Made by a program: the position numbers and the translations under genes. Shown here one piece after another: positions 17,560-36,618 of a stretch of 64,000 bases of DNA. Position 1 is the first letter of the stretch, and every line of letters starts with the position of its first letter. The notes beneath the pieces were generated by a model that worked only from the letters and a program-made list of their open reading frames with translations, did not search any database and was not told where the DNA came from. Source of the DNA: Mycoplana azooxidifex (GTDB lineage: Bacteria; Pseudomonadota; Alphaproteobacteria; Rhizobiales; Rhizobiaceae); the NCBI RefSeq assembly GCF_014196765.1, contig NZ_JACIEE010000010.1, positions 62,001 to 126,000 on the forward strand, in the 5' to 3' direction.

Positions 17560-17999
17560 ATGGCGATCTCCTTGCGGATATGTTCCACCGTGGCCGGCGT
17601 GATCTCGTGATTGTTGAGGATCTGGTCCTCGATCGGATAGAGCGCACGAATGGCCTTGAGGGCCTCGAACGCGCGTCCCTGCGTGACCAGTCCGTCGATC
17701 CGCTTCAGTTCCGCGAGCACTTCCTCGTTGCGGAAGCAGTTCAGCAGCATGATGACCGACTTGCGGAAGATCGCCGTCGATTGCTCGGCGCCATCCGGAT
17801 TGATCAGGATCATCTGGGCGATGAAGTAAAGCTGACGCAACGGCGTCGTCGCCTGTTCCGGCTGGAGAACATGGTTCTCGAGCAGGAACGTGACGTCGTT
17901 CAGGAATTCCAGGGCGACCTTCCGGTCGACCCGCAGTACCGCGCCGTTCACAAAGATGCGCTCACCCGATTTCAGCGAGATCCGCAAGGTGCTTTTCAT
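17553..17999 (-). CDS. flbT: Flagellin post-transcriptional regulator FlbT
   Basis: 148 residues, full length for FlbT. In Caulobacter FlbT binds the 5' leader of flagellin mRNA and lowers its stability or translation until the hook is finished; in Brucella it acts positively. N-terminal [19 protein letters not shown] is the family start. It overlaps flaF by four bases (ATGA), as usual for this antagonist pair. The flagellin leaders in this window contain conserved hairpins that are plausible targets. Confidence 0.93.
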
Positions 18000-18343
18000 T
18001 TTATGCCATCCCTGATGATGGTTGTTATGTCGATGATGCCCTGGAAATTGGTCGATTCACGTTTTCGGATGCGATCGGCTTCCCCCAGTATCCAGAGGGC
18101 GATTGAAATGAGATTGGCGCGCAGTTCCTTGTCGAGCTGGTTTTCGGGGTTGCCGAGATCCTCGACGAAACGAATCCAGACTCGCCGCGTGAAGTAGACG
18201 GCTTCGATGGTGTCCCTGCCGTAGGAGGTGCTGGCCTGCGCCTTGCGCAACAGCTCGATGGAACGGTCGAGTACCTGCCGCTCGCGGCCTCTGGCGGTCT
18301 CGACGCCATCCTCCATGATCTCGACATATGAGAACTGGTACAT
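17996..18343 (-). CDS. flaF: Flagellin secretion/regulatory protein FlaF
   Basis: 115-residue helical protein of the FlaF family, needed for flagellin production and export in alphaproteobacteria and acting with FlbT. Seen: the N-terminal [20 protein letters not shown] and a central [18 protein letters not shown] that match the family pattern. It lies between flgL and flbT with a four-base overlap to flbT. Confidence 0.92.
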
Positions 18344-27685: not shown

Positions 27686-28338
27686 GCCAGCACCCTGCGT
27701 ACGGTATCAGCCCAGGCCGCCATCCGCGTCACCAGGACCGTGTCCCCGAACTCCGCTGCAAGATCGAGATCGTCCGCCTCCAGGTGTCGCAGGACCATCG
27801 GAGCGCCTTCCACGAATTGCAGCTTCAATTGTTCAAACAGATGCGACGGGCCCTTGACCGTCACGACGATGCCGTCTCCTTCCGGAAGACCGGCACGGAT
27901 CATCGTCGCCAGATCCGCGACCGCCTGCCGGGCTAGCACCTCGTCGAGCACCGGCGCCAGAACGTTTGCCGCCTGGCTCGCCACGAGATCGGCGAGCATA
28001 TCGGTCATCGTCGTGAACCTTTCGGCGATCATGGCCGCCGAGTGCCTCTCGAGGTGATCGCGCAGCGCTTCGATTTCAGCCGCGTGGGCCTTGCGCAGTC
28101 CTTCGATCTCCGCCTGGTGGCGGGCGCCGAGTTCTGCTTCCGCTTCGGCACGTCCGGCGGCAAAGGCCTGCTCGCGCTCCGCTTCGACGTCGATCTGGGG
28201 TTCGGGCGCGGACAAATCGAACGCGGGCTCCTCGGCGAGACTTCCGGGTCGGGCGAATGCACCGTCATGCAGGAAGGACGGCTGCGGCCGCCGCGGCTCG
28301 CTGAAATCCTTCAGATATCTTGCAAGCTGCAAACTCAT
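27682..28338 (-). CDS. FliH-like stator of the export ATPase (candidate)
   Basis: 218 residues: an acidic coiled-coil (about 55-125, rich in Glu/Ala/Arg) followed by a compact C-terminal domain ending ADDLDLAAEFGDTVLVTRMA, the general plan of FliH, which holds the FliI ATPase at the export gate. No other FliH is visible in the window. ATG at 28338 (MSLQLARYLKDF) follows GAAGGACGCGGCGC. The start of motB overlaps its stop as ATGA. Identity is inferred from architecture and context; family similarity is weak. Confidence 0.6.
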   Translation of the reverse strand: MSLQLARYLKDFSEPRRPQPSFLHDGAFARPGSLAEEPAFDLSAPEPQIDVEAEREQAFAAGRAEAEAELGARHQAEIEGLRKAHAAEIEALRDHLERHSAAMIAERFTTMTDMLADLVASQAANVLAPVLDEVLARQAVADLATMIRAGLPEGDGIVVTVKGPSHLFEQLKLQFVEGAPMVLRHLEADDLDLAAEFGDTVLVTRMAAWADTVRRVLA

Positions 28339-28521
28339 CGCGCCGCGTCCTTCGACGTGCCCGTCCGCAGCGCAGACGAGGCGGCGCGCTTCCTGCAACC
28401 CGACCATGCCCCCTGCCCCGATTCATTCCCACGCTTCCACACAGCTGCCATGTCTCCTTGGACTTCGCGCCGGCCGGATACGGCTGCCGGCGCACAATCT
28501 TCCTGACTGCAGGTTGCGAAG

Positions 28522-28544
28522 CTAGACGGTCAAACTTGTGCGAG
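28522..28544 (-). promoter_or_regulatory. Flagellar operon motif upstream of the fliH-like/motB/motC unit
   Basis: Plus-strand CTAG, nine bases (ACGGTCAAA), CTTGTG then CGAG, about 180 bases upstream of the start. Very close to the copy before fliF. Confidence 0.55.
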
Positions 28545-28567
28545 GATGAAGGGCCGGACGGAAGGTC

Positions 28568-28600
28568 TTGGGCCGCGCCAGGGCAAGTCGCGCGGCCCAA
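28568..28600 (-). terminator. Hairpin downstream of flaC
   Basis: TTGGGCCGCG and CGCGGCCCAA, a perfect 10 bp stem with a 13-base loop, about 100 bases after the flaC stop. There is no clear T-run, so it is a probable rather than certain terminator. Confidence 0.5.
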
Positions 28601-28701
28601 GCATCCCGAAGCGCCGTTGACCTCGGCGCCCGGTCTGGATGCGCGTGCGATCGCCGGGACCAAAGTGGCCCCGCAACACGATCCACGTGCCGAACTGCCT
28701 G

Positions 28702-29691
28702 TTACTGCTGGAACAGCTGGAGAATGTTCTGCGAGTTGGTATTGGCGATCGAGAGCGACTGGATGGCCAGCTGCTGCTGGGTTTGCAGCGCCTTCAGTCG
28801 CGTCGATTCCTCGTTCATGTCCGCGTCCACGAGGCGTCCGACGCCGGTATCGATCGTGTCGATCAGCGTTGCGACGAAATCCTCCTGCATGTCGATGCGG
28901 CTCTGGATCGAGCCCAGGCTCGAGGCGGCGCTCGTCATGGCCTCGAGCTGCTCATCGACGAACTGGGTCATTGCGTCCAGGGCGTCGACATCGTCGTGCG
29001 GTCCTGGCGGTTCTGCGATGTCGAGCTGCAGGGCGACAGTGCCGAGATCGGTGATGTCCAGCGTCACCACGGAGAAGTCGAGCGACGTTGTGCCGTTCAT
29101 CGCCAGCTTGTCGAGGATACCGAGATTGCCGCCGCCGGTATCGAACAGGACGGTGTCCTCGTTCAACGGATAGTCGACGGTCGTCACGCCGACCGTGCCG
29201 GACGCGTTTCGGATGAAGGAGGCCACGACCTGCTTGGTGACCGTGACAGGCGTCGCCGTGGTGCCCGTGACGTCGCTGATATCTTCCTGCAGCCAGTTCT
29301 CGCCCGAGAAGGAGGCCGATTCGGAAATGCTCTTCAGCTGCTGCTGCAACTGGTTGATTTCTTCCTGGATCTTGGACCGGTCCGTGCCGACGCCATAGGC
29401 GGCGACGAGCTTGGACTTGATCTCCTGGACGACCTCGATGGCGCTTTCCATGGCCGCATAGGCGGTGTCGATCTTGGCAGCGCCGAGGCCGAGCGCGTCC
29501 TGAACGGTCGCGAGCGCGCGGTTGTCCGAGCGCATGGTGGTCGCGATCGACCAGTAGGCGGCGTTGTCGGCGGCGGTCTCTACCTTGAGACCGGAGGAGA
29601 CGCGTGCCTGGGTGGTTTCGAAGCTGCGATCGATTGAACGGAGGGTTTGCAGCGCCGCCATCGCGGCCGCGTTGGTCAATATGCTAGCCAT
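28702..29691 (-). CDS. flaC: Flagellin FlaC
   Basis: 329-residue filament subunit. N-terminal D0/D1 (MASILTNAAAMAALQTLRSI, then RVSSGLKVETAADNAAYWSI) and C-terminal D1/D0 (ESTRLKALQTQQQLAIQSLS, ending ILQLFQQ) match the other three flagellins. It lacks the ADGIWTDGTDFYIKADENKW segment shared by them and is about 60 residues shorter. Last in the tandem array; called FlaC by synteny. In S. meliloti FlaA is the main subunit and the others are accessory. Confidence 0.92.
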   Translation of the reverse strand: MASILTNAAAMAALQTLRSIDRSFETTQARVSSGLKVETAADNAAYWSIATTMRSDNRALATVQDALGLGAAKIDTAYAAMESAIEVVQEIKSKLVAAYGVGTDRSKIQEEINQLQQQLKSISESASFSGENWLQEDISDVTGTTATPVTVTKQVVASFIRNASGTVGVTTVDYPLNEDTVLFDTGGGNLGILDKLAMNGTTSLDFSVVTLDITDLGTVALQLDIAEPPGPHDDVDALDAMTQFVDEQLEAMTSAASSLGSIQSRIDMQEDFVATLIDTIDTGVGRLVDADMNEESTRLKALQTQQQLAIQSLSIANTNSQNILQLFQQ

Positions 29692-29832
29692 CGTCTATGC
29701 CTTGTCTCGGAGAGAGATTGCAGGCCGGAGTGAGAGCACCGGCAACGGTGGATTCGCGTCATGCGCGCTGTCGCCAACCGTTTGCCCTGGGCGACAGTCC
29801 ATCATTCTTAACGAATGCTTAACGGCCGAATG

Positions 29833-29859
29833 GTTAACAAAAAGTTAACGCCGTCGATG
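29833..29859 (-). promoter_or_regulatory. Twin GTTAAC boxes upstream of flaC
   Basis: GTTAAC at 29833-29838 and 29844-29849 (11 bases apart, one helical turn), followed on the plus strand by GCCGTCGATG. The same box plus a CATCGA element occurs before flaD and flaB. Rest of the 400-base flaC-flaD spacer: the flaC leader and the flaD terminator. Confidence 0.5.
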
Positions 29860-30013
29860 AGCAGGGAAGGTTCGTTGAGAAAGCGTAAACATTCGACAAT
29901 CGCGCAAGCCTGGCGCAAGGCATGCCTGGGGTCGCAGCGCCCAGATTTTGGCATGCGGCAGAACCCGGCGCATGGGCGCACGCCGAAATCGGGGCATTTC
30001 CGGCCGCAACAGC

Positions 30014-30047
30014 AAACCCCGCGGCTCCTTTCGGAACCGCGGGGTTT
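30014..30047 (-). terminator. Terminator of flaD
   Basis: AAACCCCGCGG and CCGCGGGGTTT form an 11 bp perfect stem 45 bases after the flaD stop; the loop is 12 bases. Rho-independent type, strong stem. Confidence 0.75.
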
Positions 30048-30091
30048 CTCCTTCAGCGCGGGACGAAGCCGCCCCTAGCCGGGGGCGCCGC

Positions 30092-31270
30092 TTACTGACG
30101 GAAGAGCGACAGGATGTTTTCGGATGCGGTGTTGGCGATCGAAAGCGCCTGGATGCCGAGTTGCTGCTGCGTTTGCAGAGCGCTGAGGCGGGTCGATTCC
30201 TCGTTCATGTCCGCATCGACGAGGCGGCCGATGCCGCTGTCGATCGAGTCGGTCAGCCTGGAGATGAAGTCCTCCTGCATGCCGATGCGCATGGAGATGG
30301 AGCCAAGTGCGGCGGTGGCGCTGGTGATGGCTTCCAACTGGTGGTCGACGTGGCTGATCAGCAGGTCGATGACATCTTCGTCGGTGAGTGTTGCATCACC
30401 AAGATTGGTCTTTGCGGTATCCAGATCGGCGATGTCGAGTTCGTAGACGGAGGTACCGTCAGCGAAGACGTTGGCGATGGTGGTCTGCTCGGCTGCCGTG
30501 ATCGTCTTGTCGGCTGCACCCGTGACCTCAACCCACTTGTTCTCGTCGGCCTTGATGTAGAAGTCGGTTCCATCGGTCCAGATGCCGTCGGCGTTCTCGG
30601 CAAAGGCGCTGGTGACAACCGTCGAGTCGACGGCCGTGTAGTAGCTGCCGTTGACCTTGGCGACGTCGAACTGCAGCGCGTCCTTGTCAAGGATGCCCAT
30701 GTTGTTGCCGCTGGTGTCGAACAGCACATTGCCGCTGTCCAGCGGGACATCGATGGACTGGACCTTGACGTTGCCGGCGGAGTCGCGAAGGAACGAGCCG
30801 ACCACCTGCTTGACGATCGATTCGCCCGTTGCGACATCGGCGCCGTTGGTCGCGCTGACGGCGGCCTTCAACCAGTTTTCGCCCGAGAAGGATGCCGAGT
30901 CGGTGATCGACTTCAGCTGGTCCTGAAGCTGCTGGATTTCTTCCTGGATCTTGCTGCGGTCGACGCCGGTTTCGCGGGCGGCAACGAGCTTGTTCTTGAT
31001 TTCCGTGACCACATCGACCGCGCTTTCCATCGCGGCATATGCAGTGTCGACCTTGGCGGCACCGAGGCCGAGGGCGTCCTGGACGGCGGAGAGCGCGCCG
31101 TTGTCCGAACGCATCGTCGTTGCGATCGACCAGTAGGCGGCATTGTCGGAGGCGGTGCCTACGCGCAGGCCGGAGGAGACGCGCGCCTGGGTTTCTTCCA
31201 TGCTGTCGTCGAGAGAGCGGAGTGTCTGGAGTGCGGCCATGGCCGCATTGTTCGTCAAGATGCTGGTCAT
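30092..31270 (-). CDS. flaD: Flagellin FlaD
   Basis: 392-residue filament subunit. D0/D1 ends are typical (MTSILTNNAAMAALQTLRSL; ending ASENILSLFRQ). The central domain contains WTDGTDFYIKADENKWVEV, nearly identical to FlaB and FlaA. Over 30504-30660 the DNA differs from flaB at only two of 157 bases, far closer than needed for protein identity, which suggests gene conversion. It has its own terminator and upstream boxes, so it is probably monocistronic. Confidence 0.92.
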   Translation of the reverse strand: MTSILTNNAAMAALQTLRSLDDSMEETQARVSSGLRVGTASDNAAYWSIATTMRSDNGALSAVQDALGLGAAKVDTAYAAMESAVDVVTEIKNKLVAARETGVDRSKIQEEIQQLQDQLKSITDSASFSGENWLKAAVSATNGADVATGESIVKQVVGSFLRDSAGNVKVQSIDVPLDSGNVLFDTSGNNMGILDKDALQFDVAKVNGSYYTAVDSTVVTSAFAENADGIWTDGTDFYIKADENKWVEVTGAADKTITAAEQTTIANVFADGTSVYELDIADLDTAKTNLGDATLTDEDVIDLLISHVDHQLEAITSATAALGSISMRIGMQEDFISRLTDSIDSGIGRLVDADMNEESTRLSALQTQQQLGIQALSIANTASENILSLFRQ

Positions 31271-31279
31271 TGGAAAATT

Positions 31280-31326
31280 GCCCCTTCAGTGGCTGATTTG
31301 AAAAGGGACATCCCGGGATTGCCGGG
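31280..31326 (-). promoter_or_regulatory. flaD mRNA leader with ribosome-site hairpin
   Basis: In the transcript, GUCCCUU (31303-31309) can pair with AAGGGGC (31280-31286), which contains the ribosome site 10 bases before the AUG. Just upstream is a second hairpin CCCGG/CCGGG (31312-31326). The same pair of hairpins occurs before flaB and flaA. Confidence 0.55.
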
Positions 31327-31349
31327 AACGATGGAATGGCCTGATGCCC

Positions 31350-31406
31350 GTTAACCCGTTCTTCGTCTTGGTTAACCCATCGTTTCGATGGCACCAGATA
31401 ATGCGA
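31350..31406 (-). promoter_or_regulatory. Twin GTTAAC boxes upstream of flaD
   Basis: GTTAAC at 31350-31355 and 31371-31376 (21 bases apart, two turns), followed by ATCGTTTCGATGGCACCAG and ATAATGCG. Nearly identical wording stands before flaB. Likely promoter or activator region. Confidence 0.55.
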
Positions 31407-31484
31407 ACATGGTTAATGAAAGTTAAACAGGGTTTACCGATCTTGGTGTAGCGCCAGCGATTTTCTGCCTCCGGAACATGAAAA

Positions 31485-31506
31485 CCGCGCCCCTTTCGAG
31501 GCGCGG
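31485..31506 (-). terminator. Terminator of flaB
   Basis: CCGCGCC and GGCGCGG, 7 bp stem, 8-base loop, followed on the minus strand by TTTTC. It lies 35 bases after the flaB stop. Confidence 0.75.
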
Positions 31507-31540
31507 CCAGTTGATTTTCGATCTATCGAACCGTTTGCGA

Positions 31541-32716
31541 TTAACGGAAGAGCGACAGGATGTTTTCCGAAGAGGAGTTGGCGATCGAGAGCGCCTGGAT
31601 GCCGAGCTGCTGCTGCGTCTGCAGGGCGCTGAGGCGGGTCGATTCCTCGTTCATGTCTGCATCCACCAGGCGGCCGACACCCGAGTCGATCGAGTCGGTC
31701 AGCTTGGAGACGAAGTCTTCCTGCAGGTCGAGGCGCATGGCGACCGAGCCCATGTCGGCGGCAGCGCTGGTGGCTGCTTCGAGCTGGCGGTCGACGTGGC
31801 TGATCAACCGGTCGATGATGTCCTCGTCGGTCAGCGTGGCGACGCCCAGGGCGGTCCGGGCGGCGTCCAGGTCGGAGATGTCGAGCTCGTAGACAGACGT
31901 ACCGGATGCGAAGACGGTGGCGATCGTGGTCTGCTCCGTCGCCGTGACCGTCTTGTCGGCTGCACCCGTGACCTCGACCCACTTGTTCTCGTCGGCCTTG
32001 ATGTAGAAGTCGGTTCCATCGGTCCAGATGCCGTCGGCGTTCTCGGCAAAGGCGCTGGTGACAACCGTCGAGTCGACGGCCGTGAAGTAGCTGCCGTTGA
32101 CCTTGGCTACGTCAGCCTGCAGGGCGTCCTGGTCAAGAATGCCCATCTTGTTGCCGCTGGTATCGAACAGCACGTTGCTCGAGTCCAGGTCGACATCGAT
32201 GGACTGAACCTTGACGTTGCCGGCGGAGTCGCGGGTGAACGAACCGACGATCTGCTTGGTGACGGTTTCAGCCGTTGCGACATCCGCACCGGCGGTCGCG
32301 CTGACGGCGGCCTTCAGCCAGTTTTCGCCGGAGAAGGAAGCGGAGTCGGCGATCGACTTCAGCTGACCCTGCAGCTGGGTGATTTCTTCCTGGATCTTGG
32401 ACTTGTCGACGCCGGTTTCGCGGGCGGCGACGAGCTTGTTCTTGATCTCTTCGATAACGTCGATCGAGGATTCGAGACCGGCATAGGCGGTGTCGACCTT
32501 GGCGGCGCCGAGGCCGAGAGCGTCCTGGACGGCGGAGAGTGCACCATTGTCCGAACGCATGGTCGTTGCGATCGACCAGTAGGCTGCGTTATCGGCGGCT
32601 TCGCCAACGCGCAGACCCGAAGAAACGCGCGCCTGGGTTTCTTCCATGCTGGAGTTGATGGAGCGCAGCGTCTGGAGAGCGGACATGGCTGCGATGTTGG
32701 TGAGAATGCTCGTCAT
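31541..32716 (-). CDS. flaB: Flagellin FlaB
   Basis: 391-residue filament subunit with D0/D1 ends (MTSILTNIAAMSALQTLRSI; ending SSENILSLFR) and a central domain shared with FlaA and FlaD. Serine/threonine-rich stretches in the middle could accept O-linked sugars. It has its own leader hairpins, upstream boxes and terminator. Named by synteny with the S. meliloti array. Confidence 0.93.
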   Translation of the reverse strand: MTSILTNIAAMSALQTLRSINSSMEETQARVSSGLRVGEAADNAAYWSIATTMRSDNGALSAVQDALGLGAAKVDTAYAGLESSIDVIEEIKNKLVAARETGVDKSKIQEEITQLQGQLKSIADSASFSGENWLKAAVSATAGADVATAETVTKQIVGSFTRDSAGNVKVQSIDVDLDSSNVLFDTSGNKMGILDQDALQADVAKVNGSYFTAVDSTVVTSAFAENADGIWTDGTDFYIKADENKWVEVTGAADKTVTATEQTTIATVFASGTSVYELDISDLDAARTALGVATLTDEDIIDRLISHVDRQLEAATSAAADMGSVAMRLDLQEDFVSKLTDSIDSGVGRLVDADMNEESTRLSALQTQQQLGIQALSIANSSSENILSLFR

Positions 32717-32724
32717 AGTTGATT

Positions 32725-32768
32725 GCCCCTTAATGGCTGACTAGGAAGGGACATTCCGGTTTTACCGG
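32725..32768 (-). promoter_or_regulatory. flaB mRNA leader with ribosome-site hairpin
   Basis: GUCCCUU (32746-32752) can pair with AAGGGGC (32725-32731), hiding the ribosome site; upstream hairpin CCGGT/ACCGG at 32756-32768. The stem bases match flaD exactly while the loops differ. Confidence 0.55.
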
Positions 32769-32792
32769 CGAACGACGGTCAACATCATGCTT

Positions 32793-32849
32793 GTTAACCC
32801 TTTATTATGCTTGGGGTTAACCCGTCGCTTCGATGGCCCTAGATAATCG
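32793..32849 (-). promoter_or_regulatory. Twin GTTAAC boxes upstream of flaB
   Basis: GTTAAC at 32793-32798 and 32816-32821 (23 bases apart), followed by CGTCGCTTCGATGGCCCTAG and ATAATCG, matching the flaD upstream region. Confidence 0.55.
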
Positions 32850-32959
32850 CAGGATGGTTAAAGAAGGGCTAAGAGCAACGAGAAAGGCGGTGTCCTTCAA
32901 AAAATTTTGCAACCTTTGCGCGCCCGTGCGCGTGTCAGAACTTGCTTAAAAAAACGATA

Positions 32960-32987
32960 AAGCCGCACCCGTTTCCGGATGCGGCTT
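32960..32987 (-). terminator. Distal terminator of flaA
   Basis: AAGCCGCA and TGCGGCTT (8 bp stem) followed on the minus strand by TTATCG and a run of T (plus-strand A-run at 32948-32954). A good Rho-independent terminator, about 130 bases after the flaA stop. Confidence 0.75.
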
Positions 32988-33090
32988 CCTGACGATCTGT
33001 GACGGGGGTCAGCCTCCCCGGCATCGATCCATCTTTCCTTGCACTGCCGGCACAGCGGAAAGTCACCGCCATGCCGGGGTAGAAGAAGCA

Positions 33091-33108
33091 GCTCCCGTTT
33101 CCGGGAGC
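33091..33108 (-). terminator. Proximal hairpin after flaA
   Basis: GCTCCCG and CGGGAGC (7 bp stem, TTTC loop), ten bases after the flaA stop, followed by a T-rich stretch on the minus strand. It may terminate or protect the 3' end; a second terminator follows. Confidence 0.6.
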
Positions 33109-33118
33109 CGCCATTGTC

Positions 33119-34294
33119 TTAGCGGAAGAGCGACAGGATGTTCTGCGAGTCGCTGTTGGCGATCGAGAGCGCCTGGATGGCGAGCTGCTGCTGCGTCTGC
33201 AGGGCGCTGAGGCGGGTCGATTCCTCGTTCATGTCGGCATCCACCAGACGGCCTACGCCGCGTTCGATGGAGTCCGAGAGCTTGGAAACGAACTCTTCCT
33301 GCAGGTCGAGGCGCATCGAGACCGAACCCATGTCGGCAGCAGCGCTGGTGGCTGCTTCGAGCTGGCCGTCGATGTGGCTGATCATCCGGTCGATGGCATC
33401 CGCATCGGTCATGGTCGCGTCGCCGAGAGCACCCTTCAGGGCATCCATGTCAGAGATGTCGAATTCCGAAACCGATGTGCCGGCTGCGAAGACGTTCGCA
33501 ATCGTGGTCTGCTCGGTTGCCGTGACCGTCTTGTCGGTCGCGCTCGTGACCTCGACCCACTTGTTCTCGTCGGCCTTGATGTAGAAGTCGGTTCCATCGG
33601 TCCAGATGCCGTCGGCGTTCTCCGAGAATGCGTCGGTGACAACCGTCGAGTCGACGGCCGTGTAGTAGCTGCCGTTGACCTTGGCGACATCAGCCTGCAG
33701 GGCGTCCTGGTCGAGAATGCCCATCTTGTTGCCGCTGGTGTCGAACAGCACGTTGCTCGTGTCCAAGTCGACGTCGATGGACTGAACCTTGACGTTGCCG
33801 GAGGAGTCGCGGGTGAACGAACCGACGACCTGCTTGGTGACCGTTTCAGCCGTTGCGACGTTGGCGCCGTTGGTCGCGCTGACGGAAGCCTTCAGCCAGT
33901 TTTCGCCGGAGAAGGAGGAGGCGTCGGCGATCGCCTTCAGCTGGTCCTGCAGCTGGGTGATTTCTTCCTGGATCTTGGACTTGTCAGCCGAAGATTCCTG
34001 GGCAGTGACCAGCTTGTTCTTGATCTCCTGCATGACGTCGATCGAGGATTCGAGACCGGCATAGGCGGTATCGACCTTGGCGGCGCCGAGGCCCATTGCC
34101 TCGCTGACAGCAGAGAGTGCACCGTTGTCGGAGCGCATGGTGGTTGCGATCGACCAGTAGGCGGCGTTGTCCGTTGCGGTACCGACGCGCAGGCCCGAGG
34201 AGATACGGTTCTGCGTGGTTTCCAGGTTGCTGGAGATGTTACGCAGGGTCTGGAGAGCAGACATTGCGCTAGCGTTGGTGAGAATGCTTGCCAT
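33119..34294 (-). CDS. flaA: Flagellin FlaA (main subunit by synteny)
   Basis: 391-residue filament subunit, first of the four tandem genes. D0/D1 ends MASILTNASAMSALQTLRNI and DSQNILSLFR; central domain with WTDGTDFYIKADENKWVEV. In S. meliloti FlaA is the essential subunit. Its leader can fold over the ribosome site like those of flaB and flaD, but its upstream region lacks the GTTAAC boxes, suggesting a different control from the others. A glycosyltransferase gene is divergent from it. Confidence 0.93.
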   Translation of the reverse strand: MASILTNASAMSALQTLRNISSNLETTQNRISSGLRVGTATDNAAYWSIATTMRSDNGALSAVSEAMGLGAAKVDTAYAGLESSIDVMQEIKNKLVTAQESSADKSKIQEEITQLQDQLKAIADASSFSGENWLKASVSATNGANVATAETVTKQVVGSFTRDSSGNVKVQSIDVDLDTSNVLFDTSGNKMGILDQDALQADVAKVNGSYYTAVDSTVVTDAFSENADGIWTDGTDFYIKADENKWVEVTSATDKTVTATEQTTIANVFAAGTSVSEFDISDMDALKGALGDATMTDADAIDRMISHIDGQLEAATSAAADMGSVSMRLDLQEEFVSKLSDSIERGVGRLVDADMNEESTRLSALQTQQQLAIQALSIANSDSQNILSLFR

Positions 34295-34295
34295 A

Positions 34296-34359
34296 TTCGT
34301 TTGTCCCTTTGAACGAAATACTTTGTGGGGACATGCCGGGCTCCCTTAATCCTACCGGC
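34296..34359 (-). promoter_or_regulatory. flaA mRNA leader with alternative hairpins
   Basis: UGUCCC (34328-34333) can pair with GGGACA (34302-34307), covering part of the ribosome site AAAGGGA. A competing stem UUCGUU (34312-34317) with AACGAA (34296-34301) would instead show the ribosome site in a loop. An upstream GCCGG/CCGGC hairpin spans 34335-34359. Confidence 0.5.
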
Positions 34360-34707
34360 GACGACGGATCGACTTCATGCCACTTGGTTTCATTATTTGG
34401 GTTGAGAAACCAAACCTGTCGTGTCGGGAAGGAATATCTCGCCCAAAGCTTTCGCGTTGATTAATTTCGCGGTTTTCGCGCCGCGTCCCAAAATCTATAG
34501 TTAATGGTCCGCAAGTTTATATGGTTAAAATTGTAAGTCTAATTCAGGCTACAATTGACCATGGCCAGCATCATCCGCGCCTGCGCGCCCGCGAGAGGAC
34601 GGATACACGCAAGCTTCATTCCCTATAGGTCGCCAATCCCCAACGTGGCCGAAGGCGCGAACCCGCGTCACTGCCTGCAGGATGTCTTTCAAACGGAGCG
34701 TCGCATC
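34360..34707. other. Divergent region flaA / GT41 gene
   Basis: AT-richer than its surroundings (for example 34480-34560). It must hold promoters for both directions; no GTTAAC box and no CTTGCG motif seen. Confidence 0.45.
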
Positions 34708-36618
34708 TTGTCCACGACCATCTCATTCGCCGCCGCATCAAAGGAATATCAGAAAGGGCGATACGGACAGGCCCTTTCGGTGCTGAACAAGCTGCTTGAG
34801 GTCCAGAGGGACGGCAAGACCTACGCGCTTCTTGCCAGGACCATGCTGAAAGTGGGGATGAAATCCGACGCGGCCATGGTCTTCGACATGGCCGCCGATC
34901 AGGAAGATGCCAACGCCACCGAATATCGCCGGAAGGCGATGATGCTTCATTTCGAAGGCGGCAGAGACGATGAGGCGCTCGTCGCCGCCAAGCGGCTTTT
35001 CGAGAAAGCGCCGTCCGACCCCGATGTGGCCTACGTCCTGGCGACGATCTTCCTCAAGCGCGGCGAACGCGACATTCTCGAGGGGATACGGAAGCCGTTG
35101 CTGGCGAGCGCCAATCCGCAGCATCTCGTCCTGGCCAGCCAACTCCTGACCAACGAGCTGGGCAATGAAAACGACCTTGTTACAACCCGGAAGATTCTCG
35201 AGAAAATCCCGGGGAACAATGTCGTTCGCTCCATCTACCTGCAGATGGCAAGGGAACTGAACGACTACGAGGCCATCGCCAGGCACGAGCCGATCATCAT
35301 GGCGGCAATCGAAAGCGGCAACCTCGGTTTCCTTGACCACGAAGGGCCGTGGCCAAATCTGCACTGGTGCGGGGATGAGGGAACAAACCGGCTTGCGACC
35401 TACAAATTACCGACACTCCCGGAGAACGCGACTACTCTTCGACGGGCCATGAGGCATGCCTGGTCGGACAAGATCAGGATCGGCTATCTTTCATCCGATC
35501 TCTGGTCGGATCACGCGACGATGAAACTGCTGCGAAGCGTGCTCGAACGGCACGACAGGAACAAGTTCGACATCACGCTCTTCTGCTACACGCCGTCCCG
35601 CCTGCTGCAAATGAACGACGCAGAGCGCAGCGCCTGGGGCGGGATCGTGCGGGTGGCCGACATGTCGGACATGGAAGCGGCATCGGCGATACGCGAAAGC
35701 CAGGTCGATATTCTCATCGACCTCAAGGGCCACACGAAGGACGGCCGGCCCGGGATCCTCAACCATCAGGCAGCGCCGATCCAGGTCGCCTGGCTCGGCT
35801 TTCCCGGCTCGACCGCAAACATCGATCTCGACTACGTGATCGGGGACCGCCACGTCCTGCCGGATTCGTCCAAGCCGCACTACCACGAGAAATTCTGCAG
35901 GCTTCCGGACACGTATCAGCCCAACGATTCGACCAACCGTCCGCCCTTGCGCCCGCAAGGCCGGGCCGATCTCGCATTGCCACAGGACAGGTTCCTGTTC
36001 GCCTCCTTCAACCACAACCGCAAGATCTCCCCCGAGGTGATCGAGCTCTGGGCGCGGATCCTCAAGCGTTCGCCCGAGAGCAGCCTGCTGCTGCTGGCGG
36101 TGTCGGAGCGGTCGCGGGAGAACATCCTGAAGAAGTTCAAGAGCGAGAAGATCGCGGCGGAGAGAATTCTGTTCACGCCGAAGATGGAGTACGAGCAGCA
36201 CCTCAATCGTCTTCAGGCAGCCGACGTCGGCCTCGACACCTTCCCGGTCAACGGCCACACCACGACATCGGAACAGCTCTGGGGCGGCCTGCCCGTCATC
36301 ACCGTCAAGGGCACCAACTTCGCCTCGCGCGTCAGCGAGAGCCTGCTGCATGCGATGAACCTGCCGGAGCTCGTTGCGGAGGACAAAGACGCCTATGTCG
36401 ATCTTGCCGTATCCTGCTACGAGAACCCGGAGAGCCTGGCGGCGTGCCGGGCGAAGCTGCAACAGAACCGCCTCGTCGCCCCGTTGTTCGATTCGGAGCG
36501 CTTCCGCCTCCACCTCGAGGCAGCCTACGAGATGATGCGCGATCGCGCACGAAGCGGTTTGGACCCCGACCACTTCGACGTGCCCGCCCTGCCCGTCCGC
36601 ACGACGCCGATCCAGTAG
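34708..36618 (+). CDS. GT41 (SPINDLY/OGT-type) glycosyltransferase with TPR-like N-terminus
   Basis: About 636 residues. TPR-like helices (residues 1-150) precede a GT-B catalytic region like eukaryotic O-GlcNAc transferase: KIRIGYLSSDLWSDHATM (His at the OGT H498 position), APIQVAWLGFPGST, FASFNHNRKISPEVIELWA (Lys at the OGT K842 position) and LDTFPVNGHTTTSEQLWGG. Such enzymes put a sugar on Ser/Thr of proteins. A TTG at 34708 is preferred (GGAGC upstream, start of TPR-like sequence); ATG at 34561 lacks a ribosome site. It is on the opposite strand between flaA and fliP, where I recall no gene in S. meliloti, so flagellin is the natural candidate target. Confidence 0.9.
   Translation: MSTTISFAAASKEYQKGRYGQALSVLNKLLEVQRDGKTYALLARTMLKVGMKSDAAMVFDMAADQEDANATEYRRKAMMLHFEGGRDDEALVAAKRLFEKAPSDPDVAYVLATIFLKRGERDILEGIRKPLLASANPQHLVLASQLLTNELGNENDLVTTRKILEKIPGNNVVRSIYLQMARELNDYEAIARHEPIIMAAIESGNLGFLDHEGPWPNLHWCGDEGTNRLATYKLPTLPENATTLRRAMRHAWSDKIRIGYLSSDLWSDHATMKLLRSVLERHDRNKFDITLFCYTPSRLLQMNDAERSAWGGIVRVADMSDMEAASAIRESQVDILIDLKGHTKDGRPGILNHQAAPIQVAWLGFPGSTANIDLDYVIGDRHVLPDSSKPHYHEKFCRLPDTYQPNDSTNRPPLRPQGRADLALPQDRFLFASFNHNRKISPEVIELWARILKRSPESSLLLLAVSERSRENILKKFKSEKIAAERILFTPKMEYEQHLNRLQAADVGLDTFPVNGHTTTSEQLWGGLPVITVKGTNFASRVSESLLHAMNLPELVAEDKDAYVDLAVSCYENPESLAACRAKLQQNRLVAPLFDSERFRLHLEAAYEMMRDRARSGLDPDHFDVPALPVRTTPIQ

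Follow-up and report, generated by a model that had tools for sequence, protein, structure and literature searches.

The stretch of DNA analysed here, hereafter the window, comprises 64,000 nt of the Mycoplana azooxidifex genome (contig NZ_JACIEE010000010.1, positions 62,001 to 126,000) and carries four flagellin genes, flaA, flaB, flaC and flaD, together with genes for FlbT and FlaF. Ahead of flaA, flaB and flaD lies a leader of about 120 nt that is predicted to form five helices, P0 to P4, the last of which pairs the ribosome site with a UGUCCC segment. We propose that this leader is a cis-acting translational lock that is off by default and is read by FlbT, which would more likely open than close it, and we assign this reading a probability of about 0.58. 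The lock probably acts against premature flagellin synthesis, both in root-nodule bacteria and in many relatives. With its arms named and its range extending from Rhizobium to Bradyrhizobium flagellins, the five-helix leader is directly testable by arm-swap reporters, and it offers FlbT a specific candidate RNA target.

Architecture of the flagellin leaders

An initial annotation of the window had described two hairpins ahead of flaA, flaB and flaD, one of them able to hide the ribosome site, and all eight of the stretches that it named are present where it placed them. These hairpins are real, and a larger conserved RNA contains them as its 3′ half; the region originally described ended too far 3′, with P0, P1 and P2 lying further upstream. 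In the fold deduced from the sequences, P0 pairs the conserved CCGUCGU between P2 and P3 with a stretch 5′ of P1 and closes a junction with P1 and P2 (GGCAUGANGCC), P3 is the CCGG hairpin, and P4 holds the ribosome site against a GUCCC-type arm. The features are as follows.

33119..34294, minus strand: flaA flagellin gene (open reading frame; Pfam Flagellin_N and Flagellin_C)
34302..34422, minus strand: flaA structured leader, P0 5′ arm to P4 3′ arm (fold; model R1, 63.7 bits; arm-swap tests)
34415-34422/34360-34367, minus strand: flaA P0 (imperfect)
34406-34414/34383-34391, minus strand: flaA P1
34371-34381, minus strand: flaA P2
34355-34359/34335-34339, minus strand: flaA P3
34328-34333/34302-34307, minus strand: flaA P4
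34304-34309, minus strand: flaA ribosome site, AAGGGA
31541..32716, minus strand: flaB flagellin gene (open reading frame; Pfam)
32724..32832, minus strand: flaB structured leader (fold; R1, 61.8 bits)
32821-32832/32769-32778, minus strand: flaB P0
32814-32821/32793-32800, minus strand: flaB P1
32782-32790, minus strand: flaB P2
32756-32768, minus strand: flaB P3
32746-32753/32724-32731, minus strand: flaB P4, containing AAGGGGC
30092..31270, minus strand: flaD flagellin gene (open reading frame; Pfam)
31279..31385, minus strand: flaD structured leader (fold; R1, 64.2 bits)
31376-31385/31327-31334, minus strand: flaD P0, overlapping P1 at the boundary of their arms
31370-31378/31349-31357, minus strand: flaD P1
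31338-31348, minus strand: flaD P2
31312-31326, minus strand: flaD P3
31303-31310/31279-31286, minus strand: flaD P4
28702..29691, minus strand: flaC flagellin gene (open reading frame; Pfam)
29705..29806, minus strand: flaC leader (fold; R1, 39.5 bits)
29799-29806/29744-29751, minus strand: flaC P0 (weak)
29790-29798/29767-29775, minus strand: flaC P1
29755-29766, minus strand: flaC P2
29739-29743/29724-29728, minus strand: flaC P3
29705-29717, minus strand: small UCUC/GAGA stem of flaC in place of a regular P4
17553..17999, minus strand: FlbT gene, candidate reader of the leader (Pfam FlbT, 142.1 bits; distribution)
17996..18343, minus strand: FlaF gene, overlapping flbT (Pfam FlaF, 109.8 bits)

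Unconstrained folding formed the ribosome-site stem in flaD, flaB and flaA at every length tried. The CCGG hairpin, which had been said always to sit just upstream, folded at most lengths, and flaA adopted another fold at 60 or 100 nt. The leader of flaC had been described as lacking the arrangement; this holds for P4, and P1, P2 and the CCGG hairpin are kept. P1 is worded without relation between genes, being UUUGGUUUC/GAAACCAAG in flaA, GUUAACC/GGUUAAC in flaB and flaD, and ACUGUCGCC/GGCGACAGC in flaC.

The claim that the ribosome-site stem of flaA has different wording proved largely mistaken. Its upper arm, AUGUCCC, is identical in the three genes, and the sole difference within the six shared P4 pairs is a one-sided change, U-A in flaA for U-G in flaB and flaD; the window alone therefore shows no compensation. 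A competing flaA stem that would expose the ribosome site is present in the sequence and is not conserved: the best flanking stem of the ribosome site has a mean of 4.02 bp over 227 of 237 leaders and of 4.03 bp in shuffled sequences, and this candidate was rejected.

Helices P0 to P3 covary among relatives

From 60 fetched Rhizobiaceae loci and the window we collected 197 flagellin leaders, of which 192 were usable and 141 remained after dereplication. The pattern CCGG, one to three bases, TG[CT]CC fits 151 of the 192 usable leaders, and an alignment of the 141 built from sequence only yielded three helices with RNAalifold. Partner shuffling across these 141 leaders, which ignores relatedness, gave z scores of 7.7 and 8.6 for the two outer pairs of P2 and of 8.3 for the outer pair of P3 (paired in 64% of leaders, 41% when shuffled). 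A gene tree built from 189 flagellins shows 33 and 39 switches between paired types for the outer pairs of P2 and P3, respectively.

Pair counts on two further alignments are consistent with the tree and shuffling results, and both lean: A1 (64 sequences, 61 of them chosen for CCGG..TG[CT]CC plus the three window leaders) is biased by that choice against change in P3 and P4, and A3 was fitted to the structure. On A1, RNAalifold recovered P2 and P3 and missed P4, probably from gaps in the loop, and P4 was counted through a preset structure.

For P0 and P1, whose wording varies freely, we compared the pairing energy of each leader's own arms with that of arms exchanged between leaders. P2 was located by rule in 221 of 237 leaders, and in these P1 reaches −9.78 kcal/mol with its own arms versus −6.68 (standard deviation 0.15) when exchanged; P0, in 210 of the 237, reaches −10.08 versus −7.76 (standard deviation 0.13). 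In a dereplicated set of 122 of the 237 leaders the values are −9.56 versus −6.63 kcal/mol for P1 (n=111) and −9.66 versus −7.46 for P0 (n=105), and none of 2000 permutations reaches either. Among four control region pairs, 1881, 1690, 1694 and 43 of 2000 permutations were at least as strong, so that three are at chance and the fourth, control d, is marginal.

These results bear on whether the conserved blocks are instead DNA sites for transcription factors. The near-palindromic GGCATGATGCC and the TTAACC boxes upstream would suit such sites, but the arms of P0 and P1 covary by complementarity with their wording free, and P4 ends at the ribosome site, which makes this explanation highly improbable. 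The initial annotation had argued for selection on structure from wording that changes while pairing is kept; the window does not bear this out, but the relatives do, with P0 to P3 covarying and P4 rewritten on both arms in one lineage. On these comparisons, selection on the structure of the leader is well supported.

P4 is predicted to pair the ribosome site and has both arms rewritten in one lineage

Across the 141 leaders, P4 positions +4 and +6 lie clearly above shuffles (z 3.4 and 4.1); the remaining positions hardly vary or, where they lie in the loop, do not exceed shuffles. The third P4 pair undergoes 42 paired-type changes on the gene tree and is still paired in 133 of 137 leaders. 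In the 3′ arm, GGG and a purine are followed by a CA that faces the UG of the upper arm and is preserved: the C is present in 133 of 141 leaders and the A in 117. This CA lies outside the Shine-Dalgarno core.

Ten genomes of the order carry a close FlbT without a leader match, and flagellin regions were taken from seven of them. Here 17 of 18 flagellin starts keep the layout with new wording, the exception being L287_6092. P3 is typically GCCGA/UCGGC, and P4 is mostly GUCUUUC/GGAAAGAC, with GUUUCC/GGAAAC or GUCCUCU/AGGGGAC as other wordings. The diverged P4 arms pair at a mean of −9.80 with each other, at −5.29 when the standard 5′ arm is joined to their 3′ arm, and at −6.27 in the reverse combination; one of the 17, L289_655, pairs weakly (−4.0). 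As judged from sequence, P4 is thus compensated on both arms, ribosome site included, in one lineage. Because six of the seven genomes belong to one genus, the independent rewriting events are few. The leader shares with cis-regulatory RNAs that occlude the ribosome site a helix containing that site and kept by compensation, and it would work like other leaders of that kind.

The predicted probability that the ribosome site is unpaired is 0.007 for flaD, 0.02 for flaB, 0.29 for flaA and 0.44 for flaC, and the median of a reference set of 28 window genes, which includes flaA, flaB and flaD, is 0.30. By this model the lock is strong in flaB and flaD and modest in flaA.

That modest occlusion in flaA, and the stable helices at the presumed 5′ end, might suggest that the leader chiefly protects an abundant mRNA from decay or serves as a ribosome standby site, with P4 a by-product without regulatory function. 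We consider this quite unlikely, since P4 is kept together with its CA bases and has been rewritten in one lineage, and a plain protective hairpin would not be expected to conserve words in its loops and linkers. By eye, words recur among relatives in the apical loop of P4, GUAUUUCGU in the flaA type and UCAGCCA in the flaB/flaD type (34312-34321, 32734-32740 and 31290-31296 in the window); these are possible protein contact sites.

The upper-arm AUGUCCC could also begin a leader peptide, translation of which would open the flagellin start. The frame set by this AUG terminates at the AUGA of the flagellin start in flaB and flaD, and in flaA the AUG has AAGGGAG before it. Among relatives the frame is not conserved: it comes to a stop codon after four codons in L037_6219, fails to meet the start in L040_4641, and in L073 has CUG in place of AUG. 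In the window it enters the flaA gene, and no ribosome site is seen before the AUG of flaB or flaD. A leader peptide was rejected on these grounds and has scarcely any probability.

Promoter-like boxes and the 5′ end

Two of the leaders are preceded by promoter-like boxes.

31409-31416 and 31396-31401, minus strand: flaD, TTAACCAT and TTATCT, 10 nt upstream of the P0 5′ arm
32854-32861 and 32841-32846, minus strand: flaB, the same pair of boxes, 8 nt from P0

A transcription start downstream of the upper P4 arm, which would have told against the initial annotation, is unlikely, because the covarying helices extend 75-89 nt further upstream than that arm. In flaD and flaB the helices start 8-10 nt from the −10-like TTATCT, so that the fold would fill almost the entire 5′ untranslated region (UTR) if transcription starts where these boxes suggest. 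TTAACC is present in 108 of 190 upstream regions. The TTAACCAT boxes are common to flaD (31409-31416), flaB (32854-32861) and flaC (29830-29837) and look CtrA-like by eye. CtrA motifs have been reported for flaA, flaC and flaD of Sinorhizobium meliloti (PMC3616915).

Distribution of the leader

Within the window's own genome, model R1 scores flaD at 64.2, flaA at 63.7, flaB at 61.8 and flaC at 39.5 bits; a fifth match, near a chemoreceptor gene, follows at 33.2 and the next at 17.1. Among 249 genomes of the order, 53 have a match at an E value of 0.01 in a search with strict filters, under which weak matches are lost. A flagellin start lies downstream at 37 of 40 fetched loci; the exceptions are L145 (the chemoreceptor neighbour in the window's own genome), L137 (a chemoreceptor gene) and L143, where the match is false and falls within a gene read as copper ATPase. 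A scan of named genomes for the exact pattern found at least 171 places in at least 120 loci; of the 171, 151 lie no more than 150 nt upstream of a flagellin start. Inspected by eye, the other 20 comprise four at the end of a fetched stretch, 11 in unrelated bacteria, four that look like chance and one that precedes a chemoreceptor-like gene in Methylosinus. Carriers among the matches listed are Rhizobium, Agrobacterium, Ensifer, Shinella, Bradyrhizobium, Aminobacter, Roseibium, Pannonibacter and Microvirga.

A search of the class (337 genomes) with model R2 passed 46 genomes at an E value of 0.01, the window's own included, and found none above 27 bits other than that one: the best outside place scores 26.7 bits, compared with 50-54 for flaA, flaB and flaD. 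None of the 20 best places outside that genome has a flagellin match nearby at an E value of 0.01, and we therefore read these 20 as background. This negative is limited by the low scores of true diverged leaders, which R1 places at no more than 27 bits (range 15-27). At the sensitivity used, the leader is detected only in Hyphomicrobiales, and diverged forms may exist elsewhere.

The leader is co-inherited with one lineage of FlbT

Pfam agrees with the initial assignment of FlbT and FlaF genes at 17.5-18.3 kb. Of the 249 genomes of the order, 189 have a flagellin, 175 have FlbT and 62 have a close FlbT (E value of 1e-12 to that of the window). A leader match is present in 52 of the 62, as judged by comparison by hand, and seven more have a diverged leader; the remaining three (G300, G319 and G393) stood outside the diverged-leader check. 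Among 113 genomes with only a distant FlbT, which were covered by the R1 search and not by the search for diverged leaders, one has a match (G345), and this is a false match inside a coding gene. All 53 genomes with a leader match are FlbT-positive by the same hand comparison. For the 52 leader genomes, the DNA of the match was fetched in 38, and coordinates place a flagellin directly downstream in 13 of the 14 others; the match of G425 lies at a contig end. The two FlbT groups are visibly distinct in sequence. Eleven leader genomes have two FlbT copies, and in these a reading of the coordinates by hand puts the close copy about 12-21 kb away from the leaders.

The leader thus has a flagellin directly downstream and FlbT in the same genome, as do flagellin leaders under FlbT control, and membership among FlbT-bound leaders is plausible from the sequences. 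Because flbT, flaF and the flagellin genes share one cluster, the co-occurrence points to co-inheritance of leader and close FlbT and does not imply contact. A search for solved relatives found none for FlaF and one chance match for FlbT (E value of 0.94), and a single-sequence model of FlbT (mean pLDDT, a confidence score, 74.6) gave no fold match at an E value of 0.001.

How FlbT might act on the leader

By default, P4 would keep flagellin mRNA poorly translated. P0 to P3, together with the conserved GGCAUGA, CCGG and the A before P4, may offer the FlbT lineage of this flagellar system a platform to read. FlbT, made with FlaF and encoded about 10-16 kb away, would remodel or open P4 and license translation once filament protein can be used. 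The initial annotation had linked the leaders to FlbT and FlaF and suggested a physical switch that waits for hook completion. The shared distribution of leader and close FlbT gives that link a correlate; FlbT may bind the leader, P4 may be the switch, and it may wait for the hook.

FlbT is reported to activate flagellin in Brucella (PMC9812332) and to induce lateral flagellins translationally in Bradyrhizobium diazoefficiens, for which the available part of the paper names no RNA structure (PMC8429497). Insertions in flbT or flaF of Agrobacterium fabrum reportedly abolish motility (PMC9812332). Two relatives are thus reported to use FlbT as a positive regulator, and the leader is predicted to be closed at rest; for these reasons activation is favoured over repression of the Caulobacter type.

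In such repression, FlbT, perhaps with a flagellin co-repressor, would stabilize the closed fold or speed decay until the co-repressor is secreted. The presence of an FlbT gene in the window agrees with this, as does Caulobacter, where FlbT reportedly binds the flagellin 5′ UTR and represses together with FljJ (PMC3930126, PMC7591256). The alternative is nevertheless unlikely given the positive role of FlbT in Brucella and in Bradyrhizobium lateral flagella, the motility block in A. fabrum flbT insertions, and the finding that no true leader accompanies distant FlbT alone at the sensitivity of the R1 search.

Several observations weigh against the proposed FlbT-read lock. The repressor role of Caulobacter FlbT is itself one of these, and Brucella hook and basal-body mutants reportedly still produce flagellin (PMC8781033). 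The published reports disagree on the hook checkpoint, since S. meliloti mutants in three flgJ-cluster genes are said to lack FlaA (PMC9812332). Leader and FlbT travel in one flagellar cluster, and coincidence is not contact. The core columns of P4 are near-invariant in the standard set, where change is mostly one-sided, and exchanging P4 arms within that set (209 of 237 leaders used) has no effect (−10.39 with own arms, −10.38 exchanged). Predicted occlusion is ordinary in flaA, at 0.29 against the median of 0.30, and just modestly stronger among relatives (median 0.23, p 0.02, 212 leaders). The outer pair of P3 is unpaired in 51 of 139 leaders. A leader's own arm ranks among the best tenth of partners in just 50 of 111 cases for P1 and 40 of 105 for P0, under half, so the pairing effect there is an average one. 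Finally, leader-like elements also occur upstream of a few chemoreceptor genes.

flaC and paralogues lacking P4

The flaC P4 duplex, at −6.9 kcal/mol, narrowly misses the −7 cut, and R1 scores this leader well below the 62-64 bits of the other three. Of 41 clusters with at least three flagellins, 19 contain a single paralogue whose P4 is weak and 22 contain none. No cluster has two P4-less paralogues, where about two would be expected by a rough estimate of chance; that a cluster never has two is a lead only. One speculative extension, which we regard as doubtful, is that this is an undescribed RNA family in which a distinct, activating FlbT lineage opens P4, and that a P4-less paralogue is the first to be translated and serves as an export sentinel. 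Throughout Hyphomicrobiales the family would then tie the making of the filament to its assembly; the sentinel, the single paralogue in a genome that is often without P4 (here flaC), would correspond to Caulobacter FljJ. If so, two FlbT-leader pairs would account for the opposite signs published for FlbT.

Relation to known RNAs and control systems

No Rfam 15 family matches the window at its gathering score. Up to an E value of 10, the region 28300-35400 has four matches, all on the other strand and none overlapping a leader. These searches, and downstream genes that serve motility without a metabolite link, make a metabolite riboswitch or an RNA thermometer very unlikely, even though a folded leader with a terminal ribosome-site helix is the form that either could take.

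The flg-Rhizobiales motif (RF01736), which has three stem-loops (PMC3765529), resembles the leader in its Rhizobiales name and its place upstream of a flagellar gene. It does not reach its gathering score of 55 bits in the window and is not among the four weak matches. In 41 genomes (the window's own and 40 relatives) it has one match, at 34.4 bits and below the cut-off, which overlaps the start of a gene read as flgF and not, as here, a flagellin start. By these comparisons the leader is not a member of RF01736, and that candidate was set aside.

We found no published account of the leader in the open-licence literature, and it may be described elsewhere. Anderson and Gober reportedly placed the 5′ UTR of Caulobacter crescentus fljK under FlbT control in 2000. 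That leader is likewise an alphaproteobacterial flagellin leader in a genome with FlbT and FlaF, for which post-transcriptional control is proposed, but FlbT represses there and is reported as positive in relatives of the window's genome; the comparison included no Caulobacter leader. Campylobacter jejuni also controls flagellin mRNA post-transcriptionally through a protein pair, CsrA-FliW, of a different protein type and lineage (PMC4894983). In Bradyrhizobium, whose lateral flagellins are under FlbT control (PMC8429497), leaders are present in the records searched; across the order, leader genomes with two FlbT copies keep the close one beside their leaders.

In A. fabrum, three insertions in the intergenic region between flaD and ATU0568 abolish motility, on the cause of which the authors speculate (PMC9812332); this region is worth a look for a possible RNA element. 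Elements of the P2-P3 type also stand upstream of genes read as chemoreceptors, at L145:2123-2195, L137:948-1036 and L226:4309-4349. The first corresponds to C10:127122-127194 of the window's own genome, 1.1 kb beyond the window; the second, in a relative, has a P4-like stem; and the third is from Methylosinus sporium.

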